NCBI RefSeq assembly: GCF_029433105.1
Contig: NZ_JARNTW010000013.1
Location: 124,001 to 188,000 of the forward strand
Direction of reading: 5' to 3'
Source: Runella sp. MFBS21
Lineage (GTDB): Bacteria; Bacteroidota; Bacteroidia; Cytophagales; Spirosomataceae
Length of the DNA stretch: 64,000 bases
In this document: positions 28,275 through 45,688 of the stretch, piece by piece
Numbering within the stretch: position 1 is the first letter of the stretch
How the letters are laid out: every line of letters starts with the position of its first letter
Program-made: the position numbers and the translations under genes
The notes under the pieces: model-generated
What the model saw: only the letters and a program-made list of their open reading frames with translations
Told to the model about the DNA's origin: nothing
Databases searched by the model: none

Positions 28275-28528
28275 AGCTGTATTTAAATGTATTATATATT
28301 TTTATTAGCGGAAAAGTTATATAAAAAGTTTCAATTTGATTTAATATTATTTGTTTAGTACAATAAGTCGTTGTTCTTTTACAATATTTTTCTTTAGAAA
28401 GCCTCATCGAAGGGGAAATTATAATGTCACAACTGTTTTATGGGTATATGATTCAGAAACGCACTTTTAAATTAATAAAATACAAAAATGTAAGATTTTG
28501 TTTGGAAAATAGAAAGTGAGTCTTTTTA

Positions 28529-28562
28529 TTTGTAACGCAAATACGCAATTAGCGTAATTTCG
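28529..28562 (+). promoter_or_regulatory. Candidate promoter of the ilv attenuator leader
   Basis: TTTG at 28529-28532 and TAATTTCG at 28555-28562 lie 22 bp apart, one mismatch from the Bacteroidota TAnnTTTG -7 box. Transcription would start near 28568, leaving about 20 nt before the leader-peptide ATG at 28587. A second near-match (TAAGATTTTG around 28491) exists, so this is a suggestion only. Confidence 0.4.
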
Positions 28563-28586
28563 CTAAAAGAAAAATTTTGCTAAAAA

Positions 28587-28643
28587 ATGTTTAACATAAT
28601 ACTAGTCGTCGTGGTCGTCATTATCAGCACCCAAATGGTGTGA
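28587..28643 (+). CDS. ilv attenuator leader peptide
   Basis: An 18-codon frame, ATG to TGA, encoding MFNIILVVVVVIISTQMV. Codons 4-13 are ten consecutive branched-chain codons (ATA ATA CTA, five Val, ATT ATC), and codon 18 is Val again. The frame ends inside the first arm of the antiterminator (28637-28646), just ahead of a terminator hairpin and 78 bp before ilvD. This is the arrangement of a translation-coupled attenuation leader sensing charged Ile-, Leu- and Val-tRNA. The peptide itself is probably without function beyond being translated. It is too short for standard gene callers. Confidence 0.85.
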   Translation: MFNIILVVVVVIISTQMV

Positions 28644-28705
28644 GTGGAACCTGATTGCTAAACCAAAAGCCTCACTCACACCTCCAATGAGTGGGGCTTT
28701 TTTTT
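28637..28705 (+). promoter_or_regulatory. Transcription attenuator (antiterminator/terminator) of the ilv-leu operon
   Basis: Arm A GGTGTGAGTG (28637-28646) is perfectly complementary to arm B CACTCACACC (28673-28682) and forms the antiterminator. Arm B also belongs to the terminator: 28666-28678 pairs over 13 positions (one G-U) with 28688-28700 around a 9-nt loop, followed by T8 at 28698-28705. The two structures are mutually exclusive. A ribosome stalled at the Ile/Leu/Val run (28596-28625) leaves arm A free and allows read-through. One that reaches the TGA at 28641 masks arm A, so the terminator forms. All of this is seen in the sequence; the mechanism is inferred from known his/leu/ilv attenuators. 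Confidence 0.85.
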
Positions 28706-28720
28706 AACATAACCTCCTAT

Positions 28721-30406
28721 ATGTCAGAACAACTCAACAAATTCAGTCGTACGCTTACACAAGAAGTAACCAATCCCGCCGCCAAAGCGATGTTGTATGG
28801 GGTAGGGTTGACGCAGGAAGACATGCAAAAAGCCCAGATAGGTATCGCTAGTACGGGCTATGAAGGCAATACCTGCAATATGCACCTCAATGGGCTATCG
28901 GTGCACGTTAAGAAAGGTATCCAGGAAAATGGCATGGTAGGTCTTATTTTTCATACCATCGGAGTTTCGGACGGAATGACCAACGGCAACAATGGCATGA
29001 GCTATTCTTTGCCAAGTCGTGATTTGATTGCCGACTCTATCGAAAACGTAGTAGGGGCTCAGTGGTACGACGGAGTGATTGCCGTAGTAGGTTGTGATAA
29101 AAATATGCCCGGTGCTATGATGGCCATTGCTAGGCTCAATCGCCCTGCCATGCTTGTATACGGAGGCACTATCCGCACGGGTGAGTACAAAGGCCAAAAA
29201 TTAGACATTATCTCGGCATTTGAGGCACTTGGTAAAAAGTTTGCGGGGACTATTTCAGACGAAGATTACGAAGGCGTTATTCAAAATGCTATTCCAGGTG
29301 CAGGAGCTTGCGGCGGAATGTACACCGCCAATACCATGGCAAGCTCGATGGAAGCAATGGGACTCACTCTGCCAAACTCATCGACTTATCCCGCTACTCA
29401 TGAAGGCAAAAAAGCCGAGTGTATCGCTATCGGCGCTGCTATGAAGCAGCTATTAGAAAAAAATATTTGCCCACGTGACATCATGACGCGCAAAGCATTT
29501 GAAAATGCAATGACCGTAGTGATGGCGTTAGGGGGGTCTACCAATGCGGTTTTACACTACTTAGCCATTGCGCGAGCAGCAGAAGTAGATTTTACGTTGA
29601 AAGATATCCAAGATATATCTGATCGTACACCGCTCATTGCCGACCTTAAGCCTTCTGGCAAATACTATATGGAAGATGTGCTCGCGATTGGGGGTATCCC
29701 AGCCGTGATGAAATACCTCTATCAAAAAGGATTTTTGCACGGAGATTGCCTCACGGTGACAGGCAAAACGGTGGCCGAAAACTTGGCAGATGCTCCTGAC
29801 CTTAGTTTTGATACCCAAAAAATCATATTCCCTATTGAGCAGGCACTCAAGTCTACCGGACACTTGCAAGTCTTATACGGAAACCTTGCTACCGAAGGAG
29901 CCGTTGCCAAAATTACGGGCAAAGAAGGGGAGCGCTTTGAAGGAATTGCTAAGGTTTGCGAACGTGAAGAAGAAGTTATAGAATATATCTCTAAGGGCGA
30001 AATCAAAGCGGGGCATGTAATAGTAATCCGCAATGAAGGTCCTAAAGGTGGCCCAGGAATGCCCGAAATGCTTAAACCTACGTCGGCCGTCATGGGAGCG
30101 GGATTAGGAGATAAGATTGCGATGATTACGGATGGCCGTTTTTCGGGCGGAACGCACGGGTTTGTAGTAGGGCACGTTACGCCAGAAGCGTATTTAGGTG
30201 GCAACATCGCTCTAGTAAAAGACGGGGACAAAATTACCATAGATGCGGTCAATAATGTATTGCAACTACATGTATCGGACGAAGAACTCGCCGAACGCCG
30301 TAAAGAATGGAAACAGCCAGAGCCTCCTTTCAAAAAGGGAACCCTCGGTAAGTATATTCGTAATGTAAAAACAGCAAGTGAAGGCTGTGTGACCGACGAA
30401 GCATAA
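28721..30406 (+). CDS. ilvD: Dihydroxy-acid dehydratase
   Basis: Fe-S dehydratase that makes 2-keto-isovalerate and 2-keto-3-methylvalerate in Val/Ile synthesis. 561 residues from the ATG at 28721 ([30 protein letters not shown]). An upstream GTG at 28691 lies inside the terminator stem and is rejected. Fe-S and active-site signatures: [41 protein letters not shown], and [22 protein letters not shown]. First structural gene of the operon, 15 bp after the attenuator U-tract and 35 bp before ilvB. Confidence 0.97.
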
Positions 30407-30440
30407 CGCAAAAAATAAAACAAATTAAAACCAAACTGTC

Positions 30441-32240
30441 ATGGAAAACCATTCAACCATGATTGCACAGCAAGACACTGTTGCTATCGACACTCCTGTA
30501 GCGCAGGAAATCCCCGCTACCAATGGCAAAGCTGTAGCAGATAATCCCCGCATTCTTTCGGGCGCTCAGGCGCTGATGGAATCCCTGATTGCAGAAGGAA
30601 CGGAGGTGATTTTTGGGTATCCTGGCGGGGCTATTATGCCTACTTATGATGCCCTTTATGACTACACCGATCGCCTTGATCACATTTTAGTGCGACACGA
30701 ACAAGGAGCAGGACATGCGGCTCAGGGGTACGCTCGTACTAGTGGAAAGCCGGGTGTATGTTTGGTTACATCGGGGCCGGGTGGTACAAACCTTGTGACT
30801 CCTATCGCTGATGCTATCATCGACTGTACACCTTTGGTGTGTATCATAGGTCAGGTAAAATCTACGCTTTTGGGAACTGATGCTTTTCAAGAAACAGACA
30901 TCATCGGTGTGACTACGCCCGTTTGTAAATGGAATTATCAAATCACCCATGCTGACGAAGTGCCAGAGGTTTTAGCAAAAGCTTTTTATATCGCCACTTC
31001 AGGTAAGCCAGGCCCAGTAGTGATTGATTTTGCCCGTGATGCTCAAGTAGGTGCCATGACCAAAGCCTTTGAATATAAAAAAGTAGAATCTCTAGTAAGC
31101 TATAAGCCGAGGGTAGTTCCTAAGGACGAGCACGTAGAGAAAGCCGCTGATTTGATTAATAACGCCAAAAAACCTTACATTTTGTTTGGACACGGCGTAC
31201 TTATATCAGGTGCGATGGAAGAATTTAAAGCTTTTGTCGAAAAAACGGACATTCCTTGCGCGAGTACTTTATTGGGGCTTTCAGCCATCCCTATTGACCA
31301 TCCCAATTATATGGGTTGGCTTGGAATGCACGGCAATTACGGTACCAATGTTCTGACTACACAAGCAGATGTAATCATTGCTATTGGAATGCGTTTTGAC
31401 GACCGTGTCACGGGCGATGCTACCAAATACATTCGCCAAGCTAAAGTGATTCATATCGAAATAGATCCTTCCGAAATCGATAAAATCATCAAGGCTGATG
31501 CACCCGTAGTAGGCGATGCCAAAGAAGTATTGAAGAAGCTTTTGCCTTTAGTGAAGGAAAACAATCATGCGGCTTGGAAAAGCGAATTTAAAAAGTATGA
31601 TGTGATAGAAGATGAGAAGATTACGCAACGGGAATTGAAGCCAGAAGGAGAAATAAAAATGGCTGAAGTGGTACGTATGCTTTCTGAAAAAACCAAAGGA
31701 GAGGCTTGTATTATAGCGGACGTAGGGCAGCATCAGATGATTGCGGCGCGTTATTATCAATTCAAAAAACCCCATTCATACATTGCTTCTGGCGGTTTGG
31801 GCACGATGGGCTTTGCGATTCCTGCGGCATTTGGCGCTAAAAAAGGAGCGACTGAGCGCGAGGTAGTGGCTTTTATCGGTGACGGCTGCTTTCAAATGAC
31901 CATCCAAGAACTAGGAACGATTGCACAGAGTGGCTTGGCCGTAAAGCTCATTATTCTCAACAACAACTATCTCGGCATGGTACGTCAGTGGCAGCAGCTG
32001 TTTTTTGAAAAACGTTATTCGTATGTGGAATTACAAAATCCAGATTTCATTACCATTGCAAAAGGATTTGGAATTCAAGGACATACTTGCTCCGACCGCG
32101 AAAATCTGAGCGACTCTTTGGATACTTTACTGAAATCTGATAAGCCATATTTGCTAGAAGTAATGGTCGAAAAAGAAGAGAATGTATTTCCGATGGTACC
32201 GGCAGGGGCAGCAGTGGCCGATATCAAACTCGAGTGCTAG
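30441..32240 (+). CDS. ilvB: Acetolactate synthase large (catalytic) subunit
   Basis: ThDP-dependent acetohydroxyacid synthase that condenses pyruvate with pyruvate or 2-ketobutyrate. 599 residues. The first 35 residues are a non-conserved tail, then LSGAQALMESLIAEGTEVIFGYPGGAIMPTYDAL, catalytic Glu in RHEQGAGHAAQGYARTSGKPGVCLVTSGPGGTNLVT, the FAD/beta-domain, and the ThDP-binding GDGCFQMTIQELGTIAQSGLAVKLIILNNNYLGMVRQWQ. Followed 31 bp later by the regulatory subunit gene. Full length. Confidence 0.97.
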   Translation: MENHSTMIAQQDTVAIDTPVAQEIPATNGKAVADNPRILSGAQALMESLIAEGTEVIFGYPGGAIMPTYDALYDYTDRLDHILVRHEQGAGHAAQGYARTSGKPGVCLVTSGPGGTNLVTPIADAIIDCTPLVCIIGQVKSTLLGTDAFQETDIIGVTTPVCKWNYQITHADEVPEVLAKAFYIATSGKPGPVVIDFARDAQVGAMTKAFEYKKVESLVSYKPRVVPKDEHVEKAADLINNAKKPYILFGHGVLISGAMEEFKAFVEKTDIPCASTLLGLSAIPIDHPNYMGWLGMHGNYGTNVLTTQADVIIAIGMRFDDRVTGDATKYIRQAKVIHIEIDPSEIDKIIKADAPVVGDAKEVLKKLLPLVKENNHAAWKSEFKKYDVIEDEKITQRELKPEGEIKMAEVVRMLSEKTKGEACIIADVGQHQMIAARYYQFKKPHSYIASGGLGTMGFAIPAAFGAKKGATEREVVAFIGDGCFQMTIQELGTIAQSGLAVKLIILNNNYLGMVRQWQQLFFEKRYSYVELQNPDFITIAKGFGIQGHTCSDRENLSDSLDTLLKSDKPYLLEVMVEKEENVFPMVPAGAAVADIKLEC

Positions 32241-32271
32241 AAGTATTTGTAGTTTTTATCATTGAAATTTT

Positions 32272-32808
32272 ATGACAACATACACCATATGCATATTCAC
32301 CGAAAATACGTTCGGTTTGCTCAATAAGATTACAATATTGTTTACACGCCGTCGCATCAATATTGAGAGTCTGACGGTGTCGGAAACAGAACGTAAGGGA
32401 GTCTCGCGCTATACGATTACAATCAAACACGAAAAACGCGAAGAAGTAGAGAAACTCGTCAAACAGATTCGGAAAGTGGTAGAAGTGTTGGCAGTATTTG
32501 GTTATCTAGACAATGAAATTGTTTATAACGAAATCGCTCTCTTTAAAATCGCTACGCCTATTGGCACGCGCCCTCTCGACATCGAAACTGTCAATAAAGT
32601 CTACAAAGCGTGGGTGGTTTATTGGGGATTGGATTATGTAGTGATAGAAAAAGCAGGTGATGAAGCCGAAATCTTGGATTTTTTCCGGTACATCAAGCCT
32701 TATGGTATCTTAGAATTTGTGAAATCGGGTCGTGTAGCGGTAGGTAAAACCCCCAATGGCTTAGTTGAGTTTTTGCCCGAAGAAGCGCATTGGGAGTATT
32801 ATTTGTAG
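32272..32808 (+). CDS. ilvN: Acetolactate synthase small (regulatory) subunit
   Basis: ACT-domain partner of IlvB that confers valine feedback control. 178 residues: TTYTICIFTENTFGLLNKITILFTRRRINIESLTVSETERKGVSRYTITIKHEKREEVEKLVKQIRKVVEVLAVFGY is the ACT domain, followed by the C-terminal ALS_ss_C domain (EIALFKIA...EILDFFRYIKPYGILEFVKSGRVAVGK). Length and order match Bacteroidota IlvN. Adjacent to ilvB; next downstream is a cargo membrane protein rather than ilvC. Confidence 0.95.
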   Translation: MTTYTICIFTENTFGLLNKITILFTRRRINIESLTVSETERKGVSRYTITIKHEKREEVEKLVKQIRKVVEVLAVFGYLDNEIVYNEIALFKIATPIGTRPLDIETVNKVYKAWVVYWGLDYVVIEKAGDEAEILDFFRYIKPYGILEFVKSGRVAVGKTPNGLVEFLPEEAHWEYYL

Positions 32809-32957
32809 TACAAAAGGTTGATAATGAATCTTTGAAAGGAAAAGTACCGCCGAAAATTCGTGAGGAATACCCAAAAAGTGCGTTATTTGCAGTGCCTTTA
32901 TCTGGTAACTTTTCAAGAATGTTAAAAACCTTGAAAAGCGCACGTAAACGTTATTCC

Positions 32958-34097
32958 ATGGAACCTCTGCAATCGCTTGCTACTCCTTTCAATGAGTTAG
33001 AATCAAAATTAAAACCGTTCTTTGACAATAAATTTTGGAAAGTTAGGCTTTTGTTTTTGGCATTGGCTATATCAGTAACTACGCTTTTGGCATTTAATTT
33101 TATTTTGGTCGACAAGGGCCTGCGAAATTTGTACCAAGAGATGAGGCATCCTGGTTCAATTGGTGGTTTTTTTTGGGATGATATTATTAAGCAAGGCGCA
33201 GATCCTCTCACACCCCAAGACTATGAACCGGGCTCGCACGAAGCCAATCAGACTTTTCGTATTACTATTCCGCTCATCGCTAGAGTTCTACATCTTAATG
33301 TGGCCGGTCTTTATGTGCTACATGTGTTGATGGGGCTTTTATTCTTGTGGTTTGTGATAGAGGTAGTGTACGGAATCCTAAAAGACAAAATACTTACTTT
33401 TTATTTCATTACGGGTTTTACGGCTATTTATGCAGGAGCCAATTTTTACATCAATTTTTTGGGACATTGCGACATTTTCCCCTTTTGTTTCATGATTTTG
33501 ATGTGGTATTACCGCAATCCACTGTTGATTCTCCTTTTTTCACAATTAGCGTTTTGGTGCGATGAACGTGCCATTATCAATTCTACTTACATTGGCTTAT
33601 TGTATTTAATGCCATTGGTGCAAAATTGGATTAAACAAGGGAATTTAAATTTAAAACTGATTCCGTTGTCTGCCATCGTCTTAGTGATAAGTGCAGGCTT
33701 GTATATAGTTATCAGAAGTTGGTTAGCTTCTAGTTATGGTCTTAAAGTGGGGCACGACAATGACCTCTCTCGCAAGACCATCACCTGGAGCTTGAGTATT
33801 ATTGGAGATAAGTTTACGAGAGGTTTAGAAGGTTTTTGGTTATTGATATTTGCTGGTATTACCGTGCTTGTATTGAGGCGGGATTGGTGGATGTTGGTAT
33901 TGCTTGGAGGATGTATGTTGGCCACAGGGGCGATTGCAATCATGGTTGCCGATGGTACACGTTCTTTGTCGTTTGGGTTTTGTATGTTCTTTTTCTTACT
34001 TATGATTTTAAAAGAACATATTGCTCAAAAAGAACTAAGGTATCTGTTAATAGTAAGTACGCTATTATCCCTGATGTTGCCAATGTCCTTTCCATAA
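32958..34097 (+). CDS. Polytopic membrane protein of unknown function
   Basis: About 379 residues from the ATG at 32958 (MEPLQSLATPFNELESKLKPFF). An ATG at 32919 is also possible, and the open frame reaches back into ilvN without family likeness. About nine hydrophobic helices are visible, for example VRLLFLALAISVTTLLAFNFIL, VLHVLMGLLFLWFVIEVVYG and LIPLSAIVLVISAGLYIVI, with a conserved-looking polar patch FLGHCDIFPF and AFWCDERAIINSTYIGLLY. The layout recalls membrane glycosyltransferases or polymer-handling proteins, but I cannot assign a family. It ends 3 bp before the methyltransferase gene, so the two form a unit lying between ilvN and ilvC. Confidence 0.75.
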   Translation: MEPLQSLATPFNELESKLKPFFDNKFWKVRLLFLALAISVTTLLAFNFILVDKGLRNLYQEMRHPGSIGGFFWDDIIKQGADPLTPQDYEPGSHEANQTFRITIPLIARVLHLNVAGLYVLHVLMGLLFLWFVIEVVYGILKDKILTFYFITGFTAIYAGANFYINFLGHCDIFPFCFMILMWYYRNPLLILLFSQLAFWCDERAIINSTYIGLLYLMPLVQNWIKQGNLNLKLIPLSAIVLVISAGLYIVIRSWLASSYGLKVGHDNDLSRKTITWSLSIIGDKFTRGLEGFWLLIFAGITVLVLRRDWWMLVLLGGCMLATGAIAIMVADGTRSLSFGFCMFFFLLMILKEHIAQKELRYLLIVSTLLSLMLPMSFP

Positions 34098-34100
34098 AAT

Positions 34101-34859
34101 ATGCAATCATCTTATTATCAGGAGTACTATGCTATCGAGCGCGAGCATTGGTGGTTTTTGGTTCGTAACCAGATATTGATGAATCATCTCCGCCAAAATT
34201 TACCCTTCAAAAGACCTCTCCAAATTTTGAATATTGGGGTAGCTACCGGCCGAACGTCCGAGCTATTAACGGAGTTTGGTAAGGTTAAGTCTGTAGAATA
34301 CGACCAAGAGTGTTATGAATTTACGAAGACAAACGTTCCTATCGATATTATTCAAGGGTCGATTTTGGAATTACCCTTCGAATCAGAAAAGTATGATTTA
34401 GTGTGCGCTTTTGATGTAATTGAGCATGTGGAAGACCATACTTTGGCTGTTTCAGAGATGAAACGAGTGTGCAAACCTGAAGGACTAGTGAGCGTGACAG
34501 TACCGGCGTTTATGTTTTTATGGAACCAACACGATGATGTCAATCACCATGTCAGAAGATATGATATGAGCATGTTGAAGAAGATTTTTGAAGGAGACGG
34601 TAAGATTATTTTCAATACATATTTCAACTTTTGGCTGTTTTTTCCGATTGCGTTTTTTCGTCTTTTATCCAAAATACTGCCCTTGCATCAGCGAAAGATA
34701 GAAGAAGCAGGTTCGGATTTTACGGTGATGAATGGCCCTATTTTCCAGAAAATATTCAAAGCTATTTTCAAAACTGAAGATTGGCTCATCCAAAGAAAAA
34801 TAAGATTATTTGTGGGCGTGTCGGCCTTGCTTACTTGGCAAAAGACAAAAAAAGTTTAA
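34101..34859 (+). CDS. Class I SAM-dependent methyltransferase
   Basis: 252 residues. N-terminal YYAIEREHWWFLVRNQILMNHL is common in bacterial methyltransferases acting near lipids or glycans. Motif I is ILNIGVATGRTSELLTEFG, the acidic SAM residue is in KSVEYDQECYEF, and motif IV is YDLVCAFDVIEHVEDHTLAVSEMKRVCKPEGLVSVTVPAFMFLW. A hydrophobic helix (FNFWLFFPIAFFRLLSKIL) suggests membrane association. It probably works with the preceding membrane protein. Neither has an evident role in amino-acid synthesis although both lie between ilvN and ilvC. Confidence 0.88.
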   Translation: MQSSYYQEYYAIEREHWWFLVRNQILMNHLRQNLPFKRPLQILNIGVATGRTSELLTEFGKVKSVEYDQECYEFTKTNVPIDIIQGSILELPFESEKYDLVCAFDVIEHVEDHTLAVSEMKRVCKPEGLVSVTVPAFMFLWNQHDDVNHHVRRYDMSMLKKIFEGDGKIIFNTYFNFWLFFPIAFFRLLSKILPLHQRKIEEAGSDFTVMNGPIFQKIFKAIFKTEDWLIQRKIRLFVGVSALLTWQKTKKV

Positions 34860-34897
34860 CATATTCAGTTGTATTACCCAAACAAACCAATCAATCA

Positions 34898-35941
34898 ATG
34901 GCACAGATTAATTTCGGCGGGACAGTAGAAGAAGTAGTAACCCGCGAAGAATTTCCTCTAGAAAAAGCACGTGAAGTATTAGCAAATGAAACTATTGCCG
35001 TTATTGGATACGGTGTACAAGGTCCAGGTCAGAGTCTTAACATGCGCGACAATGGCTTCAATGTCATCGTCGGACAGCGTAAAGGGAAAACATACGACAA
35101 AGCCGTAGCTGATGGCTGGGTGCCTGGCGAAACTCTTTTTGAAATTGAGGAAGCTCTCGAAAAAGGTACTATTATTTGTTTCTTGTTGTCGGATGCAGCC
35201 CAAATCGAATTGTGGCCAACCGTTAAAAAATATTTGACTGCTGGTAAGTCGTTGTATTTCTCACATGGATTCGGTGTTACGTACAAAGACCAAACGGGCA
35301 TCGTTCCTCCTGCTGATGTAGATGTATTTTTGGTAGCTCCTAAGGGCTCAGGTACTTCTCTTCGTCGTTTGTTTGTAGAAGGAAAAGGCCTTAACTCATC
35401 GTTTGCGGTGTTCCAAAATGCTACTGGCGAAGCCCGTACGAAGTGTATCGCAATGGGTATCGGCGTAGGTTCTGGTTATTTGTTTGAAACCGATTTCTAC
35501 CGTGAAGTAACGTCTGACCTTACAGGTGAGCGTGGAACATTGATGGGCGCTATCCAAGGTATTTTCGCGGCACAGTACGAAGTATTGCGCGAAAACGGCC
35601 ACTCTCCATCAGAAGCGTTCAACGAAACTGTAGAAGAATTGACGCAGTCGTTGATGCCATTGGTGGCTGAAAACGGCATGGACTGGATGTATGCCAACTG
35701 CTCGACGACTGCTCAACGTGGTGCGCTTGACTGGTGGAAGCCTTTCAAAGAAGCTACTAAGCCTGTGTTCCAACAACTTTACAACTCAGTAAAATCAGGT
35801 GAGCAAGCTAACATCTCTATCACTCGTAACTCACAACCAGACTACCGCGAGAAACTCGAAGTAGAATTGGCTGAGCTTCGCGATTCTGAAATGTGGCAAG
35901 CAGGTGCTGCCGTTCGCAGCTTGCGTCCTGAGCGCAACTAA
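34898..35941 (+). CDS. ilvC: Ketol-acid reductoisomerase (NADP+)
   Basis: Isomerises and reduces acetolactate or acetohydroxybutyrate, the second Val/Ile step. 347 residues from the ATG at 34898 (MAQINFGGTVEEVVTREEF); the frame opens further upstream within the methyltransferase gene but that is not IlvC sequence. Rossmann motif IAVIGYGVQGPGQSLNMRDNG, VGQRKGKTYDKA, VAPKGSGTSLRRLFVEGKG, and the knotted C-terminal domain TGERGTLMGAIQGIFAAQYEVLRENGHSPSEAFNETVEELTQSLMPL with ENGMDWMYANCSTTAQRGALDWW. Starts 38 bp after the methyltransferase gene. Confidence 0.97.
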   Translation: MAQINFGGTVEEVVTREEFPLEKAREVLANETIAVIGYGVQGPGQSLNMRDNGFNVIVGQRKGKTYDKAVADGWVPGETLFEIEEALEKGTIICFLLSDAAQIELWPTVKKYLTAGKSLYFSHGFGVTYKDQTGIVPPADVDVFLVAPKGSGTSLRRLFVEGKGLNSSFAVFQNATGEARTKCIAMGIGVGSGYLFETDFYREVTSDLTGERGTLMGAIQGIFAAQYEVLRENGHSPSEAFNETVEELTQSLMPLVAENGMDWMYANCSTTAQRGALDWWKPFKEATKPVFQQLYNSVKSGEQANISITRNSQPDYREKLEVELAELRDSEMWQAGAAVRSLRPERN

Positions 35942-35971
35942 AATACATAATTAAACTTTTAATATCTGTAG

Positions 35972-36152
35972 AGGCTGTCTCAAAAGTAACAGGTCACAAA
36001 ATATTCTTTGGATTCAACCTCACCCCCTAAATCCCCATCTCCAGAAAGGAGAGGGGGACTTTGAAAGCCCTTCTCCTAGCAGGAGAAGGGTTGGGATGAG
36101 GTTGAACAGAGGCCGAAGATAATTTGGTGATACTAGACTTTTGAGACAGCCT
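35972..36152. mobile_element. 181-bp MITE-like element with 16-bp terminal inverted repeats
   Basis: AGGCTGTCTCAAAAGT at 35972-35987 is perfectly inverted at 36137-36152. There is no coding capacity. Inside is a nested inverted pair (TTCAACCTCA near 36012 and TGAGGTTGAA near 36095) and hairpins such as CCCTTCTCCTAGCAGGAGAAGGG around 36068. AGGCTGTCTC-type ends are common on insertion sequences of this phylum, so a full-length IS probably mobilised it. No clear target duplication is seen. It sits between ilvC and the higBA pair and is followed by a T-run (36155-36160), so it may also damp transcription. Confidence 0.7.
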
Positions 36153-36205
36153 TCTTTTTTATAAAAACGCAACCAAAATGGTTACAATTTTGTATATTTG
36201 TTGAT

Positions 36206-36517
36206 ATGAGAGTGGTTGCCATAAAAACATTGAAGTCCTATTGGGAAAAAGAACTATTGGCCGAACAACCCTTGAAAGCATGGTTTGCTGAAGCAGAAAA
36301 GGCCGTTTGGCTATCGCCTCACGAGCTTAAACAGCAGTATCGGAGTGCTTCTATAGTAACGAATAAGCGAGTTGTTTTTAATATTCATGGAAACAGATAT
36401 CGTTTATTGGTAGATATAGAATATCGTCTCCAAACCGTTTTCATTGTTTGGATAGGTACGCACCAAGAGTACGATAAAATTGATGCTAAAAATATAAGAT
36501 ATGTTAAAGCCGATTAA
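36206..36517 (+). CDS. higB: HigB-type toxin (type II TA, PF09907-like mRNA interferase)
   Basis: 103 residues with the HigB_toxin pattern: MRVVAIKTLKSYWEKELLAEQPLKAWFAEAEKAVWLSPHELKQQYRSASIV, then RVVFNIHGNRYRLLVDIEYRLQTVFIVWIGTHQEYDKI. Family members cleave translated mRNA at the ribosome. It overlaps its antitoxin gene by 17 bp in toxin-first order, as usual for higBA. It lies inside the ilv-leu gene run right after the MITE-like element, which suggests acquisition as a unit. Confidence 0.88.
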   Translation: MRVVAIKTLKSYWEKELLAEQPLKAWFAEAEKAVWLSPHELKQQYRSASIVTNKRVVFNIHGNRYRLLVDIEYRLQTVFIVWIGTHQEYDKIDAKNIRYVKAD

Positions 36518-36860
36518 AACAGAAGCTCAATACGAAATAGTATTAGAGCGTCTTTACGAACTTATACAAACTGATATTTCAGAAGGATCAGAAGAAGAAG
36601 CTGAGTTTGAGATATTGACATTGTTAGTAAAAGAATATGAACGGCAAAGGTACCCCATTGGACCGCCGCATCCCATTGAAGCAATCAAGTTTCGTTTAGA
36701 CCAATTGGGGATGAAGGAGAGTGATTTAAACAAAATTTTAGGTAACAGAAGTCGTAAATCAGATATTTTAAGCGGGAGACGCAAACTTAGTCTTTCAATG
36801 ATAAGAAAGCTTCATGATGCCTTAAACATTCCTGCCGAAGCTTTGATTTCGTCTTATTAA
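36501..36860 (+). CDS. higA: HigA-type antitoxin with XRE helix-turn-helix
   Basis: 119 residues. An acidic N-terminal region (YEIVLERLYELIQTDISEGSEEEAEFEILTLLVKEYE) leads to HPIEAIKFRLDQLGMKESDLNKILGNRSRKSDILSGRRKLSLSMIRKLHDALNIPAEALI, the typical HigA HTH. It neutralises the preceding HigB-like toxin and should autoregulate the pair. It overlaps higB by 17 bp and ends 12 bp before ilvA, so ilvA expression may be tied to TA autoregulation (inference). Confidence 0.9.
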   Translation: MLKPIKTEAQYEIVLERLYELIQTDISEGSEEEAEFEILTLLVKEYERQRYPIGPPHPIEAIKFRLDQLGMKESDLNKILGNRSRKSDILSGRRKLSLSMIRKLHDALNIPAEALISSY

Positions 36861-36872
36861 AACTACAATGTC

Positions 36873-38156
36873 ATGAGTCTTGCTTCCGAAAAACATAAGT
36901 CCAAAAACGCAGATTTTCCTACGTTTGATAACATATTACAAGCCGCTGAGCGCATCCGTAAAGTGGTAAAACACACCGATTTGGAGTTAAATCTTAACTT
37001 TTCTGAGCGCTACGAAGCCAATATTTACTTCAAACGTGAAGATTTGCAAGTGGTACGTTCGTATAAAATCAGGGGAGCGTACAACAAAATGGCCAGTTTG
37101 TCGACCGAAGCTCTCGAAAAGGGAGTCGTATGCGCCAGCGCAGGAAACCACGCGCAAGGAGTCGCCTACGCTTGCAACAAAATGCAAGTCCGTGGCACTA
37201 TTTTTATGCCCAGCACAACACCCGCCCAGAAGGTAAAACAGGTAAAACTATTTGGTAAAAATCAGATTGAAGTAGTCCTCCACGGCGATACCTACGATGA
37301 CGCTTACCACGCAGCCAAGCATTTTTGCGAAGCCCACGCTGCTACGTTCATTCACCCGTTTGACGATGTGCAGGTCATGGAAGGCCAAGGAACAGTAGGA
37401 CTAGAAATTTTCCGCGATGCCGATTTTAAAATTGATTACCTGCTTTTTGCCATCGGCGGCGGCGGTTTGGCTTCAGGCGTTACCACTGTTTTTAAACAAC
37501 TCAGTCCAGCCACCAAGCTCATTGGCGTAGAACCCGTAGGCTCTCCCACGATGTACACGGCCATCAAAGAAGGGCAAGTCGTCACGCTCGACAACATCGA
37601 TAAATTTGTGGACGGAGCCGCCGTAAAACGCGCAGGAGAGCACACCTTTGAAGTATGTCGGAAAAATTTGGACGATATTTTGCTCATTCCTGAAGGAAAA
37701 GTCTGTTCGACAATTTTGCAACTTTACAACGAAGAAGCCATCGTCGTTGAGCCAGCGGGTGCGCTTACCGTGGCGGCGCTTGACCAAATCAAAGACGAAA
37801 TCAAAGGCAAAGACGTGGTATTACTGATTGGAGGTGGCAACAACGACATCACCCGTACCGAAGAAATCAAGGAACGTTCGCTCCTCTACGAAGGCTTAAA
37901 ACACTACTTTATCATTCGCTTCCCGCAGCGTTCGGGGGCTTTTAAGGAGTTTTTGAACCACGTTCTTGGCCCCAACGACGACATCGCACACTTTGAATAT
38001 TCTAAAAAAACAGCCCGCGAACGAGGTCCTGCTTTGGTAGGTATCGAACTCCGTCACAAAGAAGATTTCGAGCCACTTTTGACACGCATGAACGAACACA
38101 ATATTCAGTTCGAGTATATCAACAATAAACCTGATTTGTTTGAGTTTTTGATATAA
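36873..38156 (+). CDS. ilvA: Threonine dehydratase (deaminase), biosynthetic
   Basis: PLP enzyme that converts threonine to 2-ketobutyrate, committing carbon to isoleucine. 427 residues: PLP lysine in VVRSYKIRGAYNKM, VCASAGNHAQGVAYAC, FMPSTTPAQKVKQVKLFG, HPFDDVQVMEGQGTVGLEI, glycine loop FAIGGGGLASGV, LIGGGNNDITR. One C-terminal ACT-like regulatory domain (HYFIIRFPQRSGAFKEFLNHVLGPNDDIAHFEY). This is the short IlvA form with a single regulatory domain. It starts 12 bp after higA. Confidence 0.95.
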   Translation: MSLASEKHKSKNADFPTFDNILQAAERIRKVVKHTDLELNLNFSERYEANIYFKREDLQVVRSYKIRGAYNKMASLSTEALEKGVVCASAGNHAQGVAYACNKMQVRGTIFMPSTTPAQKVKQVKLFGKNQIEVVLHGDTYDDAYHAAKHFCEAHAATFIHPFDDVQVMEGQGTVGLEIFRDADFKIDYLLFAIGGGGLASGVTTVFKQLSPATKLIGVEPVGSPTMYTAIKEGQVVTLDNIDKFVDGAAVKRAGEHTFEVCRKNLDDILLIPEGKVCSTILQLYNEEAIVVEPAGALTVAALDQIKDEIKGKDVVLLIGGGNNDITRTEEIKERSLLYEGLKHYFIIRFPQRSGAFKEFLNHVLGPNDDIAHFEYSKKTARERGPALVGIELRHKEDFEPLLTRMNEHNIQFEYINNKPDLFEFLI

Positions 38157-38169
38157 ACTTTAAAAGAGC

Positions 38170-38292
38170 ATGAAACTCCATTTAAAAGAAATAGATACTT
38201 CTCAAGGAAGAGTTGTTCAGATGCCTGTTGAAGAATGAGAACGATACAGCCGTCAATACGAGCAGATGAAAGTAATCTTCAATAATTTTTAA
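38170..38292 (+). pseudogene. Possible decayed small gene with an in-frame TGA
   Basis: From the ATG at 38170 the frame gives MKLHLKEIDTSQGRVVQMPVEE, a TGA at 38236-38238, then ERYSRQYEQMKVIFNNF and TAA at 38290. A single G-to-A change from TGG (Trp) would join the halves into a 40-residue protein of antitoxin-like character (VVQMPVEEWERY...). This is a short stretch and coincidence is possible. Confidence 0.35.
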
Positions 38293-38334
38293 AGTAGCAT
38301 TAGTTGGTAGGTACCAAAATAATACATTGATTCT

Positions 38335-39330
38335 ATGAATAACTTCATACAATATCTTGAAATTAAAAATTTTAAATCTATACGATATTTAAAACTTTCT
38401 AATTTCAAAAAAATCAACCTTTTTATTGGAAGACCCAATGTAGGAAAATCGAATATACTAGAAGCCCTTGGATTGTTCACATTACCTTATGTAAATATGA
38501 ATAATGGCAAATTGCAGTTAAAGAAAATAAAAAATCTTGTTCGGTTAGAAAACGAATCAGAACTCTTTTATGAAGGTAATACTTCATCATCAATCTCTAT
38601 AAAAACCAACAATTTTCAATGTATTATTTCTCGTAACCCAGAAGAAAATAGCTTTGATTATACTAATTACCCAAAACTTCTTCACGAAAAAGGATATTAC
38701 ATATATTTTTCTGAAGATTTAAAAAAAGAAGGCTACCCTGTTAAAAGTTATCATTTTAAAACTGGAGTAAACTTTAAAAGGGAGAAAGTTGAGTTTTTAA
38801 TGCCCCCTTTTGGTAATAACATTTTACAAACGTTAGATTTTTTACCCGATTTAAAAGAAACCATTGCCTATTGGTTCAGCCAATATGGATTAAGAATTGT
38901 CTTTGACAAAGCCAGTCAATCGTTAAAGATAATGAAAGAAGTGCATGATAATGAAGTATTTATAATTCCTTACAATTCAATTGCTGATACTTTACAACGT
39001 ATTATATTTTACAAAACAGCCATTGCTTCTAATCAAAACTCCGTTTTGGTTTTTGAAGAGCCAGAAGCACACTCTTTTCCCCCTTACATAACAGAATTTA
39101 CGCAAGAAGTAATCGAATCTACTTCTAATCAATTCTTTATGGCAACCCATAGCCCCGTAATTGTCACTGATTTTCTTGAAAATGCCCGAAAAGACTTAGC
39201 AATATTTATGGTAGATTTTAAAGACGGCCAAACAGTTATTCGCTCACTTCAAGAAACCGAAATCGAGGATGTATATAAATATGGGATTGATTTATTTTTC
39301 AATAATGAAGCTTACCCTGTTATCAAATGA
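38335..39330 (+). CDS. AAA/SMC-like ATPase (AAA_15/AAA_21, OLD-type), candidate defence ATPase
   Basis: 331 residues of the ABC-ATPase/OLD class: LEIKNFKSIRYLKLSNFKKINLFIGRPNVGKSNILEALGLF with Walker A at 32-39, signature-region residues near ADTLQRIIFYKTAI, Walker B VLVFEEPEAH at 237-246, and H-loop MATHSPV with His272. It overlaps the next gene by 4 bp (ATGA). That gene has TOPRIM-like acidic motifs, so the pair resembles a split OLD or PARIS-like ATPase plus nuclease. The region is visibly more AT-rich than the ilvA and leuC genes around it, a sign of transfer. Its place in defence is inference. Confidence 0.82.
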   Translation: MNNFIQYLEIKNFKSIRYLKLSNFKKINLFIGRPNVGKSNILEALGLFTLPYVNMNNGKLQLKKIKNLVRLENESELFYEGNTSSSISIKTNNFQCIISRNPEENSFDYTNYPKLLHEKGYYIYFSEDLKKEGYPVKSYHFKTGVNFKREKVEFLMPPFGNNILQTLDFLPDLKETIAYWFSQYGLRIVFDKASQSLKIMKEVHDNEVFIIPYNSIADTLQRIIFYKTAIASNQNSVLVFEEPEAHSFPPYITEFTQEVIESTSNQFFMATHSPVIVTDFLENARKDLAIFMVDFKDGQTVIRSLQETEIEDVYKYGIDLFFNNEAYPVIK

Positions 39331-39890
39331 TAGATTTTAAGGTGATACCAGAATGTTATATTGATACTAAGCTTATCAAAGTTCTTGTTCCTCCACAAAA
39401 TCATTACAACCATCAAAAAGGGTGTTCTAATGTCGTCAAAGTAATGAAGGAGAAATTAGCTGGTGATTTTGCGCTTGGTATTATCGATAGAGATAAAGTA
39501 GAACTTGGTTATGCTTCTGAATTTGATTTAGCAACTGAGCTTACAGGTGTGTTACAGTTATGTAAGCATAGAACTAGGAATCATTACCTTATATTTATAG
39601 AACCTGCGATTGAAAAGTGGATTATTAGAAATGCAGATGATGCAGGAATTTCATTAATTAACTTTGGCCTTCCTCATGATTTTGATAGTTTACGAAAACT
39701 GACAAAAACCTCTAAGAGTGAAAATAACGACCCATTTTCATTTCATTTTCAAAAATTATTTAAAGAACTGAAGAGGCAAAGCCCAAAAGGCATTTCTATT
39801 CTTTCGTTTTGGATTAATTATCTAAAAGCAAATCAATATAACGCTAATTTGCAGTATTTGATTGATGAAACAAACAGATTGAACCAATGA
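39327..39890 (+). CDS. TOPRIM-like partner protein of the ATPase
   Basis: 187 residues, no named family. VIPECYIDTKLIKVLVPP offers the conserved Glu of a TOPRIM strand-turn-helix, and DFALGIIDRDKVEL offers the later D-x-D, so the arrangement matches TOPRIM nucleases such as OLD C-terminal and DUF4435 proteins. The rest (HYLIFIEPAIEKWIIRNADDAG, DFDSLRKLTKTSKSENNDPF, ILSFWINYLKANQYN) is of unknown type. It overlaps the ATPase by 4 bp and the next small gene by 4 bp (ATGA both times), so a single coupled transcript is likely. An effector role is inferred. Confidence 0.6.
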   Translation: MIDFKVIPECYIDTKLIKVLVPPQNHYNHQKGCSNVVKVMKEKLAGDFALGIIDRDKVELGYASEFDLATELTGVLQLCKHRTRNHYLIFIEPAIEKWIIRNADDAGISLINFGLPHDFDSLRKLTKTSKSENNDPFSFHFQKLFKELKRQSPKGISILSFWINYLKANQYNANLQYLIDETNRLNQ

Positions 39891-40105
39891 ATTTTGATTT
39901 CAGAAAATACCACGTACGTGCCATCAATGCGCGCGACGAAGCCGAAAAAGCGGCCATCAACCAAGAATTGAAAGACTTATACGATTCTCTTTCGGAAACC
40001 GACAAAAAAGTATTCAATGAAGAATTACAGAAGTTTTTGGTATCCCAATATAAAGCTATCGGCGACGAATACGAGTCCCTGAAAAAAGGCGGCGCGTTTA
40101 ACTGA
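39887..40105 (+). CDS. Small cytosolic protein of unknown function
   Basis: 72 residues, charged and helical: MNFDFRKYHVRAINARDEAEK followed by INQELKDLYDSLSETDKKVFNEELQKFLVSQY, ending in GGAFN. There is no membrane segment. Its codons are GC-richer than the preceding ATPase/TOPRIM pair and like those of leuC, so it looks native to the operon, with the AT-rich pair inserted directly before it. The start overlaps the preceding stop (ATGA). No family recognised. Confidence 0.7.
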   Translation: MNFDFRKYHVRAINARDEAEKAAINQELKDLYDSLSETDKKVFNEELQKFLVSQYKAIGDEYESLKKGGAFN

Positions 40106-40106
40106 T

Positions 40107-40210
40107 AAACGTCGGCAGGGTTTGTAATCATTGCCGGCTAAACCCTGCCGACGTTTCAATTTCGGCAGGGTTTATAATTACTGCCTCCTGAACCCTGCTG
40201 ACGTTTCAAT
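40107..40210. repeat. Two tandem copies of a hairpin repeat, about 50 bp each
   Basis: Copy 1 (40107-40159) has a perfect 17-bp stem: 40107-40123 pairs with 40140-40156 (core CGTCGGCAGGGTTT / AAACCCTGCCGACG). Copy 2 (40163-40210) repeats CGGCAGGGTTT, TAATTA-CTGCC and ACCCTGC-GACGTTTCAATT with mismatches that weaken the stem. They fill the gap between the small gene and the AraC gene. It may be a terminator/REP-type element that duplicated; no U-tract follows. Confidence 0.75.
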
Positions 40211-40235
40211 TAACCATTAACCGATAACCGCCCCC

Positions 40236-41078
40236 ATGCTTCGCGTCCCTTCTTCCATCAGCGCCCAACAGTTCCAGTCTCTGAAAATTCAGGACACGAC
40301 TTTTGTGGCCTACCGAAGCGACGTATATCCCGAACGCAATGAGATTTTTTTTGAGGAACATGCCGTCGTTGTCGTGCTCGAAGGAGAAAAGAAGTTTATC
40401 TCTCCCAACCAAGACCTGCACGTTCGCAAGGGGCAAATTTTGTTTTTCCAACGGGGCTGCTATTCCATGAACGAATCCATAGGAAGCGACTACCGCAGCC
40501 TTGTTTTTTTCTTTCACGAAAAGCTACTGAAAGAATTTGTAAGCCAAAACCAAACGTTGTTCGACAAAGCAGACGTCGAAAACCCTCAGCCGATTTTAGT
40601 GCTACAATCCTCTTCGACTTTTGAGAAATTCATTGATTCTCTCTTTCCCTATTTCCACTCACAAACGTCCTACTTGAATCAGTTTTTACGGCTCAAGTTT
40701 CAGGAACTGCTGCTTCATTTGTTGGAAATCGACGGCTCCAATCAGCTCAAAACCATTTTGTTTAATATTTACAAAGGGCAGAAAACGGACTTGGAATATC
40801 TGCTCAACAACTACTACCTAAAACCGCTGACGATAAGCGAATTAGCCCATCTTTCGGGACGAAGTTTGTCTGCGTTTAAACGCGAGTTTGAAGCCCAATT
40901 TCACGCCTCACCCGCTCATTGGATTAAACAAAAACGCCTGGAACAAGCCGCTTTTTTACTCAAAAACGCCAATAAAAACGTGTCTGAAGTCAGTATGGAA
41001 ATTGGCTATGAGAGTGTTTCTCATTTTATCAAAGCCTACAAGGAGAAATACGGTTTTACGCCAAAAAAATACAATTGA
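40236..41078 (+). CDS. AraC-family transcriptional regulator (ExsA-like architecture)
   Basis: 280 residues. An N-terminal cupin-like sensing domain (EHAVVVVLEGEKKFISPNQDLHVRKGQILFFQRGCYSM) and a C-terminal double HTH: PLTISELAHLSGRSLSAFKREFEAQFHASPAHWIKQKRLEQAAFLLKNANKNVSEVSMEIGYESVSHFIKAYKEKYGFTPKKY. It sits within the leucine gene run, 98 bp before leuC, on the same strand. Whether it controls leu genes or is unrelated cargo is not visible. A helical hairpin repeat lies just upstream. Confidence 0.9.
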   Translation: MLRVPSSISAQQFQSLKIQDTTFVAYRSDVYPERNEIFFEEHAVVVVLEGEKKFISPNQDLHVRKGQILFFQRGCYSMNESIGSDYRSLVFFFHEKLLKEFVSQNQTLFDKADVENPQPILVLQSSSTFEKFIDSLFPYFHSQTSYLNQFLRLKFQELLLHLLEIDGSNQLKTILFNIYKGQKTDLEYLLNNYYLKPLTISELAHLSGRSLSAFKREFEAQFHASPAHWIKQKRLEQAAFLLKNANKNVSEVSMEIGYESVSHFIKAYKEKYGFTPKKYN

Positions 41079-41176
41079 GCTAAAATCGCTATTGTTTGAG
41101 CGAAGGGCGTCATGTCACTTTGGGAAGATTCCTGCAATTTTGTAGCGTATTATTCTCCCATTGCATTAATCTCAAA

Positions 41177-42586
41177 ATGGATATGTCAAACCAACCAACA
41201 ACTCTCTTCGACAAAGTGTGGGATGCGCACGTTGTCCGCAAGATTGCAGACGGCCCCGATGTATTGTTCATCGACCGCCACTTTATTCACGAAGTAACCA
41301 GCCCTGTAGCGTTTTTGGGCTTGGAAAGCAGAGGCATTGGCGTGTTGTTCCCGAACCGTACGTTTGCTACGGCCGACCACAACACCCCTACCATCAACCA
41401 ACACTTGCCAGTCGCTGACCCTCTTTCGGCCAATCAGCTCAAGGCGTTGGAAACCAACACCGCCAAATACGGTATTTCTCACTGGGGCTTGGGCCACCAA
41501 AAAAATGGTATCGTACACGTGGTTGGGCCAGAAAATGGCATCACTCTCCCTGGCATGACGATTGTTTGCGGTGATTCGCACACTTCTACCCACGGAGCGT
41601 TTGGAGCGATTGCGTTCGGTATCGGTACGTCGGAAGTAGAAATGGTATTGGCGTCGCAGTGTATCATGCAGCCAAAACCAAAGAAAATGCGCATTACCAT
41701 CAATGGTCAATTGGGGAAAGGTGTCCTTCCTAAGGATGCGGTATTGTACATCATTTCTCAAATTTCGGCCAGTGGTGCTACGGGTTACTTCGTAGAGTAC
41801 GCAGGTGATGTGTTTGAAAACATGAGCATGGAAGGTCGTATGACGGTGTGTAACATGTCGATTGAAATGGGTGCGCGTGGTGGTATGATTGCCCCCGACG
41901 AAAAAACGTTTGCTTACCTCAATGGCCGTGAGCAGTCGCCAAAAGGCGAAGCATGGGAAAACGCCGTTGCGTACTGGCAAACCCTCAAAACTGACGAAGG
42001 CGCTGGGTTTGACTTAGAATACACCTACGATGCGGCCGACATTGAGCCACAAATCACCTACGGAACCAACCCTGGCTTAGGAACGGGCATTACCAAACAC
42101 ATCCCGAAAGCTGCCGATGTACTTGACGGAGCTGCTTCTTACGCTAAGTCATTGAACTACATGGGATTTGCCGAAGACGAAAGTCTTTTGGGCAAAGCCA
42201 TTGATTTCGTTTTCTTGGGAAGCTGTACCAACGGCCGCATTGAAGATTTCCGCGCGTTTGCATCGGTGGTGAAAGGTCGTAAAAAAGCTGACAACGTAAC
42301 GGCTTGGTTGGTACCAGGTTCGCACATCGTAGAAGCCCAAATCAAAGAAGAAGGTATTTTGGATGTTTTGACCGAAGCAGGTTTTCAGTTGCGCCAGCCA
42401 GGTTGCTCAGCTTGCTTGGCCATGAACGACGACAAGATTCCTGCGGGCAAGTATGCCGTAAGTACCTCTAACCGTAACTTCGAAGGCCGCCAAGGCCCAG
42501 GAGCACGTACCTTGTTGGCCAGCCCATTGGTAGCTGCTGCCGCCGCTATTACGGGTAAAGTCACTGACCCACGGGAGTTTTTGTAA
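41177..42586 (+). CDS. leuC: 3-isopropylmalate dehydratase large subunit
   Basis: 4Fe-4S enzyme isomerising 2- to 3-isopropylmalate in leucine synthesis, partner of LeuD. 469 residues from the ATG at 41177 ([20 protein letters not shown]; the ATG at 41183 is equally possible). The frame opens earlier with a TTG at 41096, but that stretch is not family sequence. Cluster cysteines are in [17 protein letters not shown] and [18 protein letters not shown], and [24 protein letters not shown] is intact. LeuD lies 500 bp downstream because a four-helix-bundle gene is interposed. Confidence 0.95.
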
Positions 42587-42594
42587 CTTTGGCA

Positions 42595-42626
42595 GTAAGC
42601 TTTATGCTGTAAGCCCTAAGCTTTTG
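42595..42626. repeat. Inverted repeat, left flank of the four-helix-bundle gene
   Basis: GTAAGCTTTATGCTGTAAGC...CTAAGCTTTTG. Its reverse complement closely matches 43046-43083 on the other side of the gene (shared AAAGCTTA, GGC/GGG-TTA and AGCATAAAGC blocks). A further GCATATAGC pair lies at about 42645-42680. Confidence 0.6.
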
Positions 42627-42689
42627 TACATTAATTATGTGTTCAAAAGCATATAGCTTATTGCTTAAAGCATATAGCATTACCTACAA

Positions 42690-43043
42690 ATGAGAGATTT
42701 TAGAAAATATGAGGTTTGGAAATTGGCACATTCTTTTGTGTTACAGATTTATTCTATTTCTAAAAATTTCCCTCAAAGCGAAATATACGGTCTGACCAGC
42801 CAACTTCGCAGGGCTGCTACATCTATTCCTACAAATATCAGTGAAGGATGTGGACGAAACACAGATGCGGAATTTGCTCGTTTCTTACATATTGCTTTGG
42901 GGTCAGCTCACGAGACCGAATACTTACTTCAATTGGCTCATGATCTTGAGTATATTGAAGAAACTACCTATCAATCATTGCATTTGAAAATAAATGAAGT
43001 GAAAAGAAAGGTTTATCATTTGGAACAAAAACTTAATAAATAA
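42690..43043 (+). CDS. Four-helix-bundle protein (23S rRNA intervening-sequence protein family)
   Basis: 117 residues with the full family pattern: RDFRKYEVWKLAHSFVLQIYSISKNFPQSEIYGLTSQLRRAATSIPTNISEGCGRNTDAEFARFLHIALGSAHETEYLLQLAHDLEYI. Members occur inside 23S rRNA genes as IVS-encoded proteins and, as Avd-like proteins, beside diversity-generating retroelements. This one is in neither context: it sits between leuC and leuD, flanked by inverted repeats, as a free cassette. No reverse transcriptase is nearby. The biochemical function is unknown. Confidence 0.93.
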   Translation: MRDFRKYEVWKLAHSFVLQIYSISKNFPQSEIYGLTSQLRRAATSIPTNISEGCGRNTDAEFARFLHIALGSAHETEYLLQLAHDLEYIEETTYQSLHLKINEVKRKVYHLEQKLNK

Positions 43044-43045
43044 TG

Positions 43046-43083
43046 CCAAAGCTTAAAGCCTAAGGCATATAGCATAAAGCCCA
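43046..43083. repeat. Inverted repeat, right flank of the four-helix-bundle gene
   Basis: CCAAAGCTTAAAGCC followed by TAAGGCATATAGCATAAAGC, the approximate reverse complement of 42595-42626. With its partner it brackets exactly one gene. Confidence 0.6.
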
Positions 43084-43090
43084 CAAAAAA

Positions 43091-43687: not shown

Positions 43688-43692
43688 TTTCT

Positions 43693-45210: not shown

Positions 45211-45223
45211 AAGACAATTGATT

Positions 45224-45242
45224 AACCACAAAGGACTCAAAG
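45224..45242. repeat. Inverted repeat, left flank of the GxxExxY gene
   Basis: AACCACAAAGGACTCAAAG. Its reverse complement matches 45653-45671 at 15 of 19 positions. The gene start codon lies 2 bp inside it. Confidence 0.6.
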
Positions 45243-45243
45243 A

Positions 45244-45621: not shown

Positions 45622-45652
45622 GACCTTTACGGCCCGCCGCTGCGGTGCAATT

Positions 45653-45671: not shown

Positions 45672-45688
45672 TATTTTTTACTAAGTAA

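Follow-up and report, generated by a model that had tools for sequence, protein, structure and literature searches.

The enterobacterial ilvGMEDA, ilvBN, and leuABCD operons are controlled by leader-peptide attenuators, and classical attenuation requires RNA polymerase and the leading ribosome to advance in step. Both promoters and translation initiation are unusual in Bacteroidota. The abstract of the 2004 study by Vitreschak reportedly extends predicted attenuators to Bacteroidetes/Chlorobi. Within the phylum, the available passages of a 2021 transcriptome study of Flavobacterium psychrophilum give strong clues for leader-peptide attenuation before amino-acid operons (PMC9723704), while those of a study of B. 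thetaiotaomicron mention leader-peptide-like short ORFs (PMC7366714). An article on the his genes of the superphylum, in the parts available, does not mention the word "leader" (PMC8305728). In another phylum, an attenuator of ilvBNC is described in the available portions of work on Corynebacterium (PMC11857589, PMC10272879). The F. psychrophilum clues, together with earlier in silico predictions, temper the statement of a sequence-only reading of the DNA studied here that few cases have been described in Bacteroidota. The open-licence literature yielded no precedent for this Spirosomataceae attenuator family, its covariation, its spacing rule, or its cassette-like place, an absence that is weak evidence.

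Upstream of ilvD in Runella sp. MFBS21, within the 64-kb stretch of DNA analysed (the window), the same layout was found as in the enterobacterial ilvGMEDA, ilvBN, and leuABCD leaders: a short leader gene rich in Ile/Leu/Val codons, alternative hairpins with one common arm, and an intrinsic terminator before the first structural gene. We consider it highly probable that a ribosome-mediated transcription attenuator controls the ilv operon; attenuators of this kind are already known, and the present one is real, conserved, and co-evolving, and very probably functional. The leader peptide gene (MFNIILVVVVVIISTQMV followed by a stop codon; 28587 to 28643, + strand), read directly from the ATG at 28587, has 18 codons, and codons 4 to 13 (28596 to 28625, + strand) specify Ile Ile Leu, five Val, and Ile Ile, the clustering of pathway-product codons in a short open leader gene that marks a ribosome-mediated attenuator. 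By reading, no Shine-Dalgarno sequence was obvious at its start. The ten-codon run was the longest Ile/Leu/Val run among short ORFs on both strands of the window. Hydrophobic runs do occur in short ORFs, and 1 of 60 whole windows, after dinucleotide shuffling, contained a run of ten at some position; however, the conservation, covariation, and pathway match of leader and arms described below leave a chance ORF before an ordinary terminator with a probability close to nil.

Arm A (GGTGTGAGTG, 28637 to 28646, + strand), the 5' arm of the antiterminator, contains the TGA stop codon of the leader (28641 to 28643) and begins 11 nt beyond the end of the control-codon cluster. Arm B (CACTCACACC, 28673 to 28682, + strand), found by direct reading and covariation, is the exact reverse complement of arm A over 10 of 10 positions and is common to the antiterminator and the terminator (28665 to 28705, + strand). 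RNAfold and the covariation of arms B and C placed the terminator stem at 28665 to 28678 and 28688 to 28701 and the T8 at 28698 to 28705, ending 15 nt before the ilvD ATG (28721). Mutually exclusive antiterminator and terminator helices that share an arm, the structural hallmark of an attenuator, were thus present with exact arms, and both helices covary. The sequence-only reading had the 18-codon leader, its ten consecutive branched-chain codons, its end inside the antiterminator arm, and the exact complementarity and mutual exclusion of the arms at the right coordinates; for the terminator, the shared arm, the T8, and the 15 bp to ilvD stood, but the stem given as 13 positions has 14 pairs in RNAfold, of which one is G-U and four are A-U pairs drawing on the T-run. 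Folding of the leader region gave a z score of -3.53, and none of 200 shuffles was equally stable. A putative small hairpin, GCACC(CAAAT)GGTGT (1:2; 28627 to 28641, + strand), seen in individual sequences, would compete with arm A. Over 46 sequences it paired in 63.5% of cells, compared with 65.2% for a control slid by 2 columns, and as a pause or protector hairpin it is a weakly supported candidate for a third conserved element.

To relate codons to arms, the leader was folded with a ribosome at successive positions, on the assumption that the front edge lies 11 nt beyond the A-site codon. Arm A retained 10 pairs through A-site codon 13, 7 and 3 pairs at codons 14 and 15, and 0 from codon 16 onward, making the last codon of the run the limit for full arm A pairing. 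With this assumed front edge, a stalled ribosome would leave arm A free and a terminating one would cover it, as the codon placement of an attenuator demands. We infer the following course of events. RNA polymerase would start near 28537, and a ribosome would translate the leader gene during transcription. Were charged Ile-, Leu-, or Val-tRNA scarce, the ribosome would stall on codons 4 to 13 with its front edge just short of arm A, which would pair with arm B once B is made, block the terminator, and let transcription continue into ilvD. Were all three plentiful, the ribosome at the stop codon would cover arm A, arm B would pair with arm C, and transcription would end at the T8 before ilvD; without translation, the terminator would be the default fold too. 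Of the 18 ribosome positions, 17 had the terminator as their best fold once arm C had been made, and the antiterminator must therefore form first and win kinetically, as in the classical attenuation model.

Given this layout, we scrutinized the ilvD upstream regions of relatives. Of 59 relatives, 50 had ilvD; among 200 family genomes searched with a stricter cut-off, the gene was present in 191. Of these genomes, 115 of the 191 and one further genome in which ilvD is in two pieces (G015) supplied 116 family loci that were read upstream. The attenuator layout preceded ilvD in 61 of the 116 Spirosomataceae loci, 56 recognised by scan and eye and 5 more through R1, a model of the attenuator family. 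All 12 Runella ilvD loci had the attenuator and an open leader counterpart with branched-chain codons, the poorest being L010, while the thirteenth Runella genome (G005) is without an ilvD of this type. No attenuator was found by scan and R1, and in part by eye, in the other 55 family loci, one of which (L028) is cut by a contig end; the attenuator is therefore dispensable. Variation among the loci that have it was also evident: the Ile/Leu/Val share fell below 40% in 4 of 56 leaders (L010, L024, L032, and L207), and the best A:B helix had just 5 to 6 contiguous pairs in eight loci (L013, L015, L135, L139, L151, L175, L180, and L188). Four loci, L007 to L010 (genomes G001, G004, G010, and G007), carry a second, tandem attenuator-like element about 375 to 250 nt before ilvD and ahead of the predicted promoter of the first element, with a leader MIIRTKNSVILVSIITPSTV and variants and a terminator of GCCCCTTCTCACACC...GGGGC plus T-run.

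The distance to ilvD bears on whether the leader peptide might act on ilvD translation, through re-initiation or exposure of the start, and not on transcription. In the Runella locus the terminator lies a mere 15 nt before the ilvD start, and re-initiation at short leader genes has been proposed for bacteria including Bacteroidetes, as the available passages of PMC4833913 state; the leader stop codon, however, is 77 nt from ilvD, against a peak at 11 to 14 nt for Bacteroidetes in the same passages. Elsewhere in the family, as many as 194 nt separate the T-run from ilvD downstream (716 nt in L029, whose attenuator, 825 nt ahead of ilvD, may belong to another gene), and terminator pairing and T-run are kept. 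On this evidence an action on translation is very unlikely, and transcription attenuation remains the preferred reading.

Covariation was determined in a full alignment (A2) of all 54 distinct sequences from 56 loci and in a smaller one (A1) of 46 of the 54, the most divergent arms being omitted (L133, L135, L136, L139, L175, L180, L181, and L196). Across the 54 sequences, 97.9% of the 486 terminator cells were paired and 81 showed a double change (shuffles, 86.1% and 29.3); of the 538 antiterminator cells, 87.9% were paired and 51 showed a double change (shuffles, 77.7% and 16.2), slid versions pairing in at most 61.1% and 57.2%, respectively. Nine of the 11 antiterminator pairs showed a double change, and none of 500 shuffles matched either helix in cells paired, double-change cells, or covariation score. 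With the 46 sequences of A1, the terminator reached 99.0% with 62 double changes and the antiterminator 91.7% with 31, such that restoring the eight divergent sequences lowered the cells paired and raised the double changes (62 to 81 and 31 to 51). At A1 columns 44, 82, and 101, arms A, B, and C changed jointly (U-A-U, A-U-A, and G-C-G). Further pair types in the terminator were not above shuffles, being reached by 496 of 500 with 46 sequences and by 410 with 54; those in the antiterminator were reached by 387 and 5 of 500, and the count of double-changed terminator pairs by 128 and 15 of 500, respectively. Since sequence relatedness inflates covariation counts, leaders were also paired with arm B of other arm classes, the best match being searched anew for each partner among 46 distinct arm triplets from 56 loci, a set that differs from A1. 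At least 8 contiguous A:B pairs occurred in 36 of 46 own combinations compared with 102 of 1294 foreign arm-class combinations.

Spacing between codons and arms was likewise held. The end of the codon cluster lay 8 to 12 nt from arm A in 42 of 55 distinct leaders, with a mode of 11 (the other 13 ranged from -1 to 26), while the stop-to-arm-A distance varied from -8 to +11. The conserved distance is the one that would matter to a stalled ribosome. Alternative hairpins by themselves are no proof of a ribosome sensor, and a riboswitch, a T-box, or an RNA-binding protein could in principle select the hairpin. An open leader with matching codons, codon content that depends on the pathway, and the held codon-to-arm spacing all argue against such a sensor, which we regard as extremely unlikely; no Rfam family reached its gathering score in the 64-kb window, on which ground the T-box and the known Rfam leader families were rejected. 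A translating ribosome is thus the sensor that we favour.

Consistent with that choice, codon content in other leaders of the genome and its relatives followed the pathway downstream. When R1 was run over the Runella genome itself, the two best matches were the ilvD site (5e-15) and one upstream of leuA (1e-6), where the leader reads MIQRNLLRLTWS and NCBIfam confirmed the gene; the best three matches were read, weaker ones (L227 to L231) being set aside, and no branched-chain gene follows the third (0.005). Mean Leu/(Ile+Leu+Val) was 0.63 in 11 leuA leaders, which were found through R1 and three of which are cut without a start codon, versus 0.31 in 53 ilvD leaders, a difference reached by 0 of 20000 permutations that treat related leaders as independent (L266 was omitted as a near-copy of L225). 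The trpE gene, for which the best NCBIfam match was trpE_most, below its cut-off, is preceded by a leader with tandem Trp codons (MNNNIINIAYWWRTHSIG and a stop codon; L285:1272-1328), then by a GC-rich terminator with T7, and, by reading, GATGAGCAA in the trp leader is complementary to TTGCTCATC in the terminator, a 9-nt arm. In 12 of 13 Runella genomes, hisG is preceded by a conserved leader in which a stretch of eight codons includes three to five for His (L212 to L223, L215 in the present genome; for example, KTPNYAFFRHHHHHAYGRA) and which overlaps a hairpin; no T-run terminator was recognised at these hisG leaders. No clear Thr leader was seen by eye in the 350 nt before a thrA-like gene. 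The match of codons to pathway among the ilv, leuA, trpE, and hisG leaders is a further property of attenuators. Taken with the leader itself, the hairpins, the three-way covariation, and the codon-to-arm spacing, it supports the attenuator that the sequence-only reading had proposed. That reading had staked itself on branched-chain codons and hairpins being conserved in relatives, which they are, though 55 of 116 loci have no attenuator, and had suggested looking for covariation across related ilvD upstream regions, where arms A, B, and C covary and none of 500 shuffles attained their cells paired, double-change cells, or covariation scores.

Two further elements lie before the leader. TTTG at -33 is a Bacteroidota promoter element. 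A promoter-like site of Bacteroidota type (28501 to 28532, + strand) comprises TTTG at 28501 to 28504, a 20-nt spacer, and TTTATTTG at 28525 to 28532, and sets the predicted transcription start at about 28537. TTTATTTG has one mismatch to TAnnTTTG, the consensus given for -12 to -5 in the available part of PMC9723704. Among the 61 attenuator loci, 34 have a loose form of this site, as do 10 of the 54 lacking an attenuator and 30 of 2300 shuffles. Just 3' of the predicted start lies an operator-like palindrome (TTAGCGTAATTTCGCTAA, 28549 to 28566), identified by pattern conservation; the pattern, which was defined after inspection of the loci, recurred at 50 of the 61 loci that have an attenuator, at 40 of the 54 that lack one, and in 21 of 2300 shuffles. 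L028, which ends at a contig end 22 nt before ilvD, was excluded from the promoter and palindrome counts, hence the 54. In the 7.9-Mb genome AGCGWAAWTTCGC has three sites, and the same palindrome also stands before leuA (L225/L283, G000:C34:66006-66018). The third site precedes a gene reading like a fatty-acid desaturase and may be chance. The palindrome is likely the operator of a branched-chain regulator.

Control might accordingly be exerted predominantly at initiation, by a DNA-binding protein at 28549 to 28566, with the attenuator as a fine-tuning device or a relic. Loci with the attenuator and loci lacking it both keep the palindrome, which also precedes leuA, and almost half of the family loci (55 of 116) yielded no attenuator; however, the three-arm covariation and the held codon-to-arm spacing show selection on the attenuator itself where it is present, and no regulator was identified in this analysis. 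We therefore consider dominant initiation control unlikely, and attenuation our preferred reading, although the two layers are compatible. In 40 of 54 loci without a found attenuator, the palindrome lies 31 to 71 nt before the start of the ilvD match, and in 46 of 47 measured attenuator loci it lies 21 to 45 nt before the leader start. The attenuator thus resembles a cassette that was gained or lost between ilvD and a promoter region that stays fixed.

Downstream, ilvD (28721 to 30406, + strand), encoding dihydroxy-acid dehydratase (NCBIfam TIGR00110, 712 bits, above cut-off), would be the first gene controlled and is followed by co-directional genes from ilvB to leuB (30441 to 46762, + strand; NCBIfam and Pfam). 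Their order is ilvB, ilvN, an unclassified protein (by reading, a membrane protein), a methyltransferase, ilvC, a HigB-type toxin with a helix-turn-helix partner, ilvA, an AAA ATPase, an unclassified protein, an AraC-type regulator, leuC, a 23S-IVP-type protein, leuD, a citramalate/isopropylmalate synthase, a PDDEXK protein, and leuB. NCBIfam assigned ilvD, ilvB, ilvN, ilvC, ilvA, leuC, leuD, the citramalate/isopropylmalate synthase, and leuB; unrelated cargo lies between these ilv and leu genes, and two proteins of the locus are without a Pfam match. The "18-kb locus" of the sequence-only reading corresponds to 28721 to 46762, all on the + strand, over which a single transcript is plausible. 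A pattern scan found three weak + strand terminator-like sites within it (44829, 45635, and 46579), but says little because its total of 22 sites on both strands was no higher than in shuffles (mean 20.8). That the attenuator controls all 18 kb is no more than plausible: the genes are co-directional throughout, but several are unrelated cargo. The HigB-type toxin gene and its weakly matched helix-turn-helix partner occupy 36206 to 36860, between ilvC and ilvA. The leuA-like gene at 43693 to 45210 matched CimA, a citramalate synthase, far better (683.9 bits, cut-off 950) than leuA_bact (276.6, cut-off 598.7), and the genome has a better leuA at another place (L225); Runella sp. MFBS21 may make its isoleucine from citramalate. 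After leuB, a direct repeat of about 65 to 75 nt at 46767 and from 47520, which carries a terminator-like hairpin (46797 to 46843), flanks a minus-strand DUF5615/DUF433 gene pair of toxin-antitoxin-like type and looks like an insertion.

Beyond the family, R1 was run over 390 genomes of the order, of which 71 had matches at E <= 0.001, 35 within the family (some of which are in the model) and 36 outside. Eight of the outside-family matches were inspected (L258, L260, and L275 to L280), and ilvD or ilvE follows in all eight. Among 20 secondary matches, 17 precede leuA, ilvD, or ilvE and three do not (L271, L273, and L274); with L226, these are false positives with no adjoining branched-chain gene. 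Of 80 named ilvD loci, R1 matched 13 on the + strand at E <= 0.001, and 12 of these 13 are not from Runella. Nineteen of 30 matches at E <= 0.1 were read (18 loci). With the best ORF chosen per match, each had one with at least five Ile/Leu/Val in eight codons, and ilvE or ilvD came next; the genes were named by reading, except ilvE of L096, L074, and L260, assigned by NCBIfam. These matches include Chryseobacterium, Myroides, Tenacibaculum, Lutibacter, Chitinophaga, Saprospiraceae, Cyclobacteriaceae, and an Ignavibacteriae MAG. A stringent attenuator scan of the 80 named ilvD upstream regions gave 12 hits, compared with 4 in 1188 control windows and 2 in 800 shuffles, several of the arms being AT-rich and unconvincing; a looser scan gave 23 of 80 versus 11 of 1188.

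On these grounds, opinion could fall evenly either way on a broader proposal, that leader-peptide attenuation is the common form of amino-acid control in Bacteroidota, with close coupling throughout the phylum and a removable cassette in Spirosomataceae. If true, branched-chain attenuators before ilvE or ilvD would span members of Cytophagales, Flavobacteriales, Chitinophagales, and Saprospirales and an Ignavibacteriae MAG; Runella would have separate ilv, leu, trp, and perhaps his versions; and the cassette would sit between a conserved operator and ilvD in Spirosomataceae. Transcription and translation would then be closely coupled throughout a phylum in which translation starts largely without Shine-Dalgarno pairing. 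The interest of the system lies in its phylum, the coupling that it implies, and its cassette-like position behind a conserved operator-like palindrome. A small switch of natural origin, from an environmental genus and with amino acids as its defined input, it makes coupling in Bacteroidota directly testable, and a covariance model of the Spirosomataceae attenuator family would make amino-acid operons easier to annotate throughout the phylum.

The E. coli trp leader contains GWWRTS, and the Runella trpE leader, which resembles it, also carries WWRT. Like the E. coli trp attenuator, the Runella ilv leader follows a three-segment logic, but it is predicted to sense different amino acids, and its 1:2 hairpin is weakly supported. 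In contrast to the enterobacterial ilv and leu leaders, that of Runella has a promoter-like site of Bacteroidota type, no obvious Shine-Dalgarno sequence, ilvD as the first gene, and a stop codon that falls within arm A; the window has no match to an Rfam leader family. The Corynebacterium ilvBNC attenuator, as described in the available portions of its sources (PMC11857589, PMC10272879), likewise precedes an ilv operon but belongs to another phylum and to other first genes. The F. psychrophilum case shares the phylum, the proposed mechanism, and the amino-acid biosynthesis operons; whereas its available passages name neither the operons nor the structures (PMC9723704), the Cytophagales family described here comes with explicit arms and covariation.
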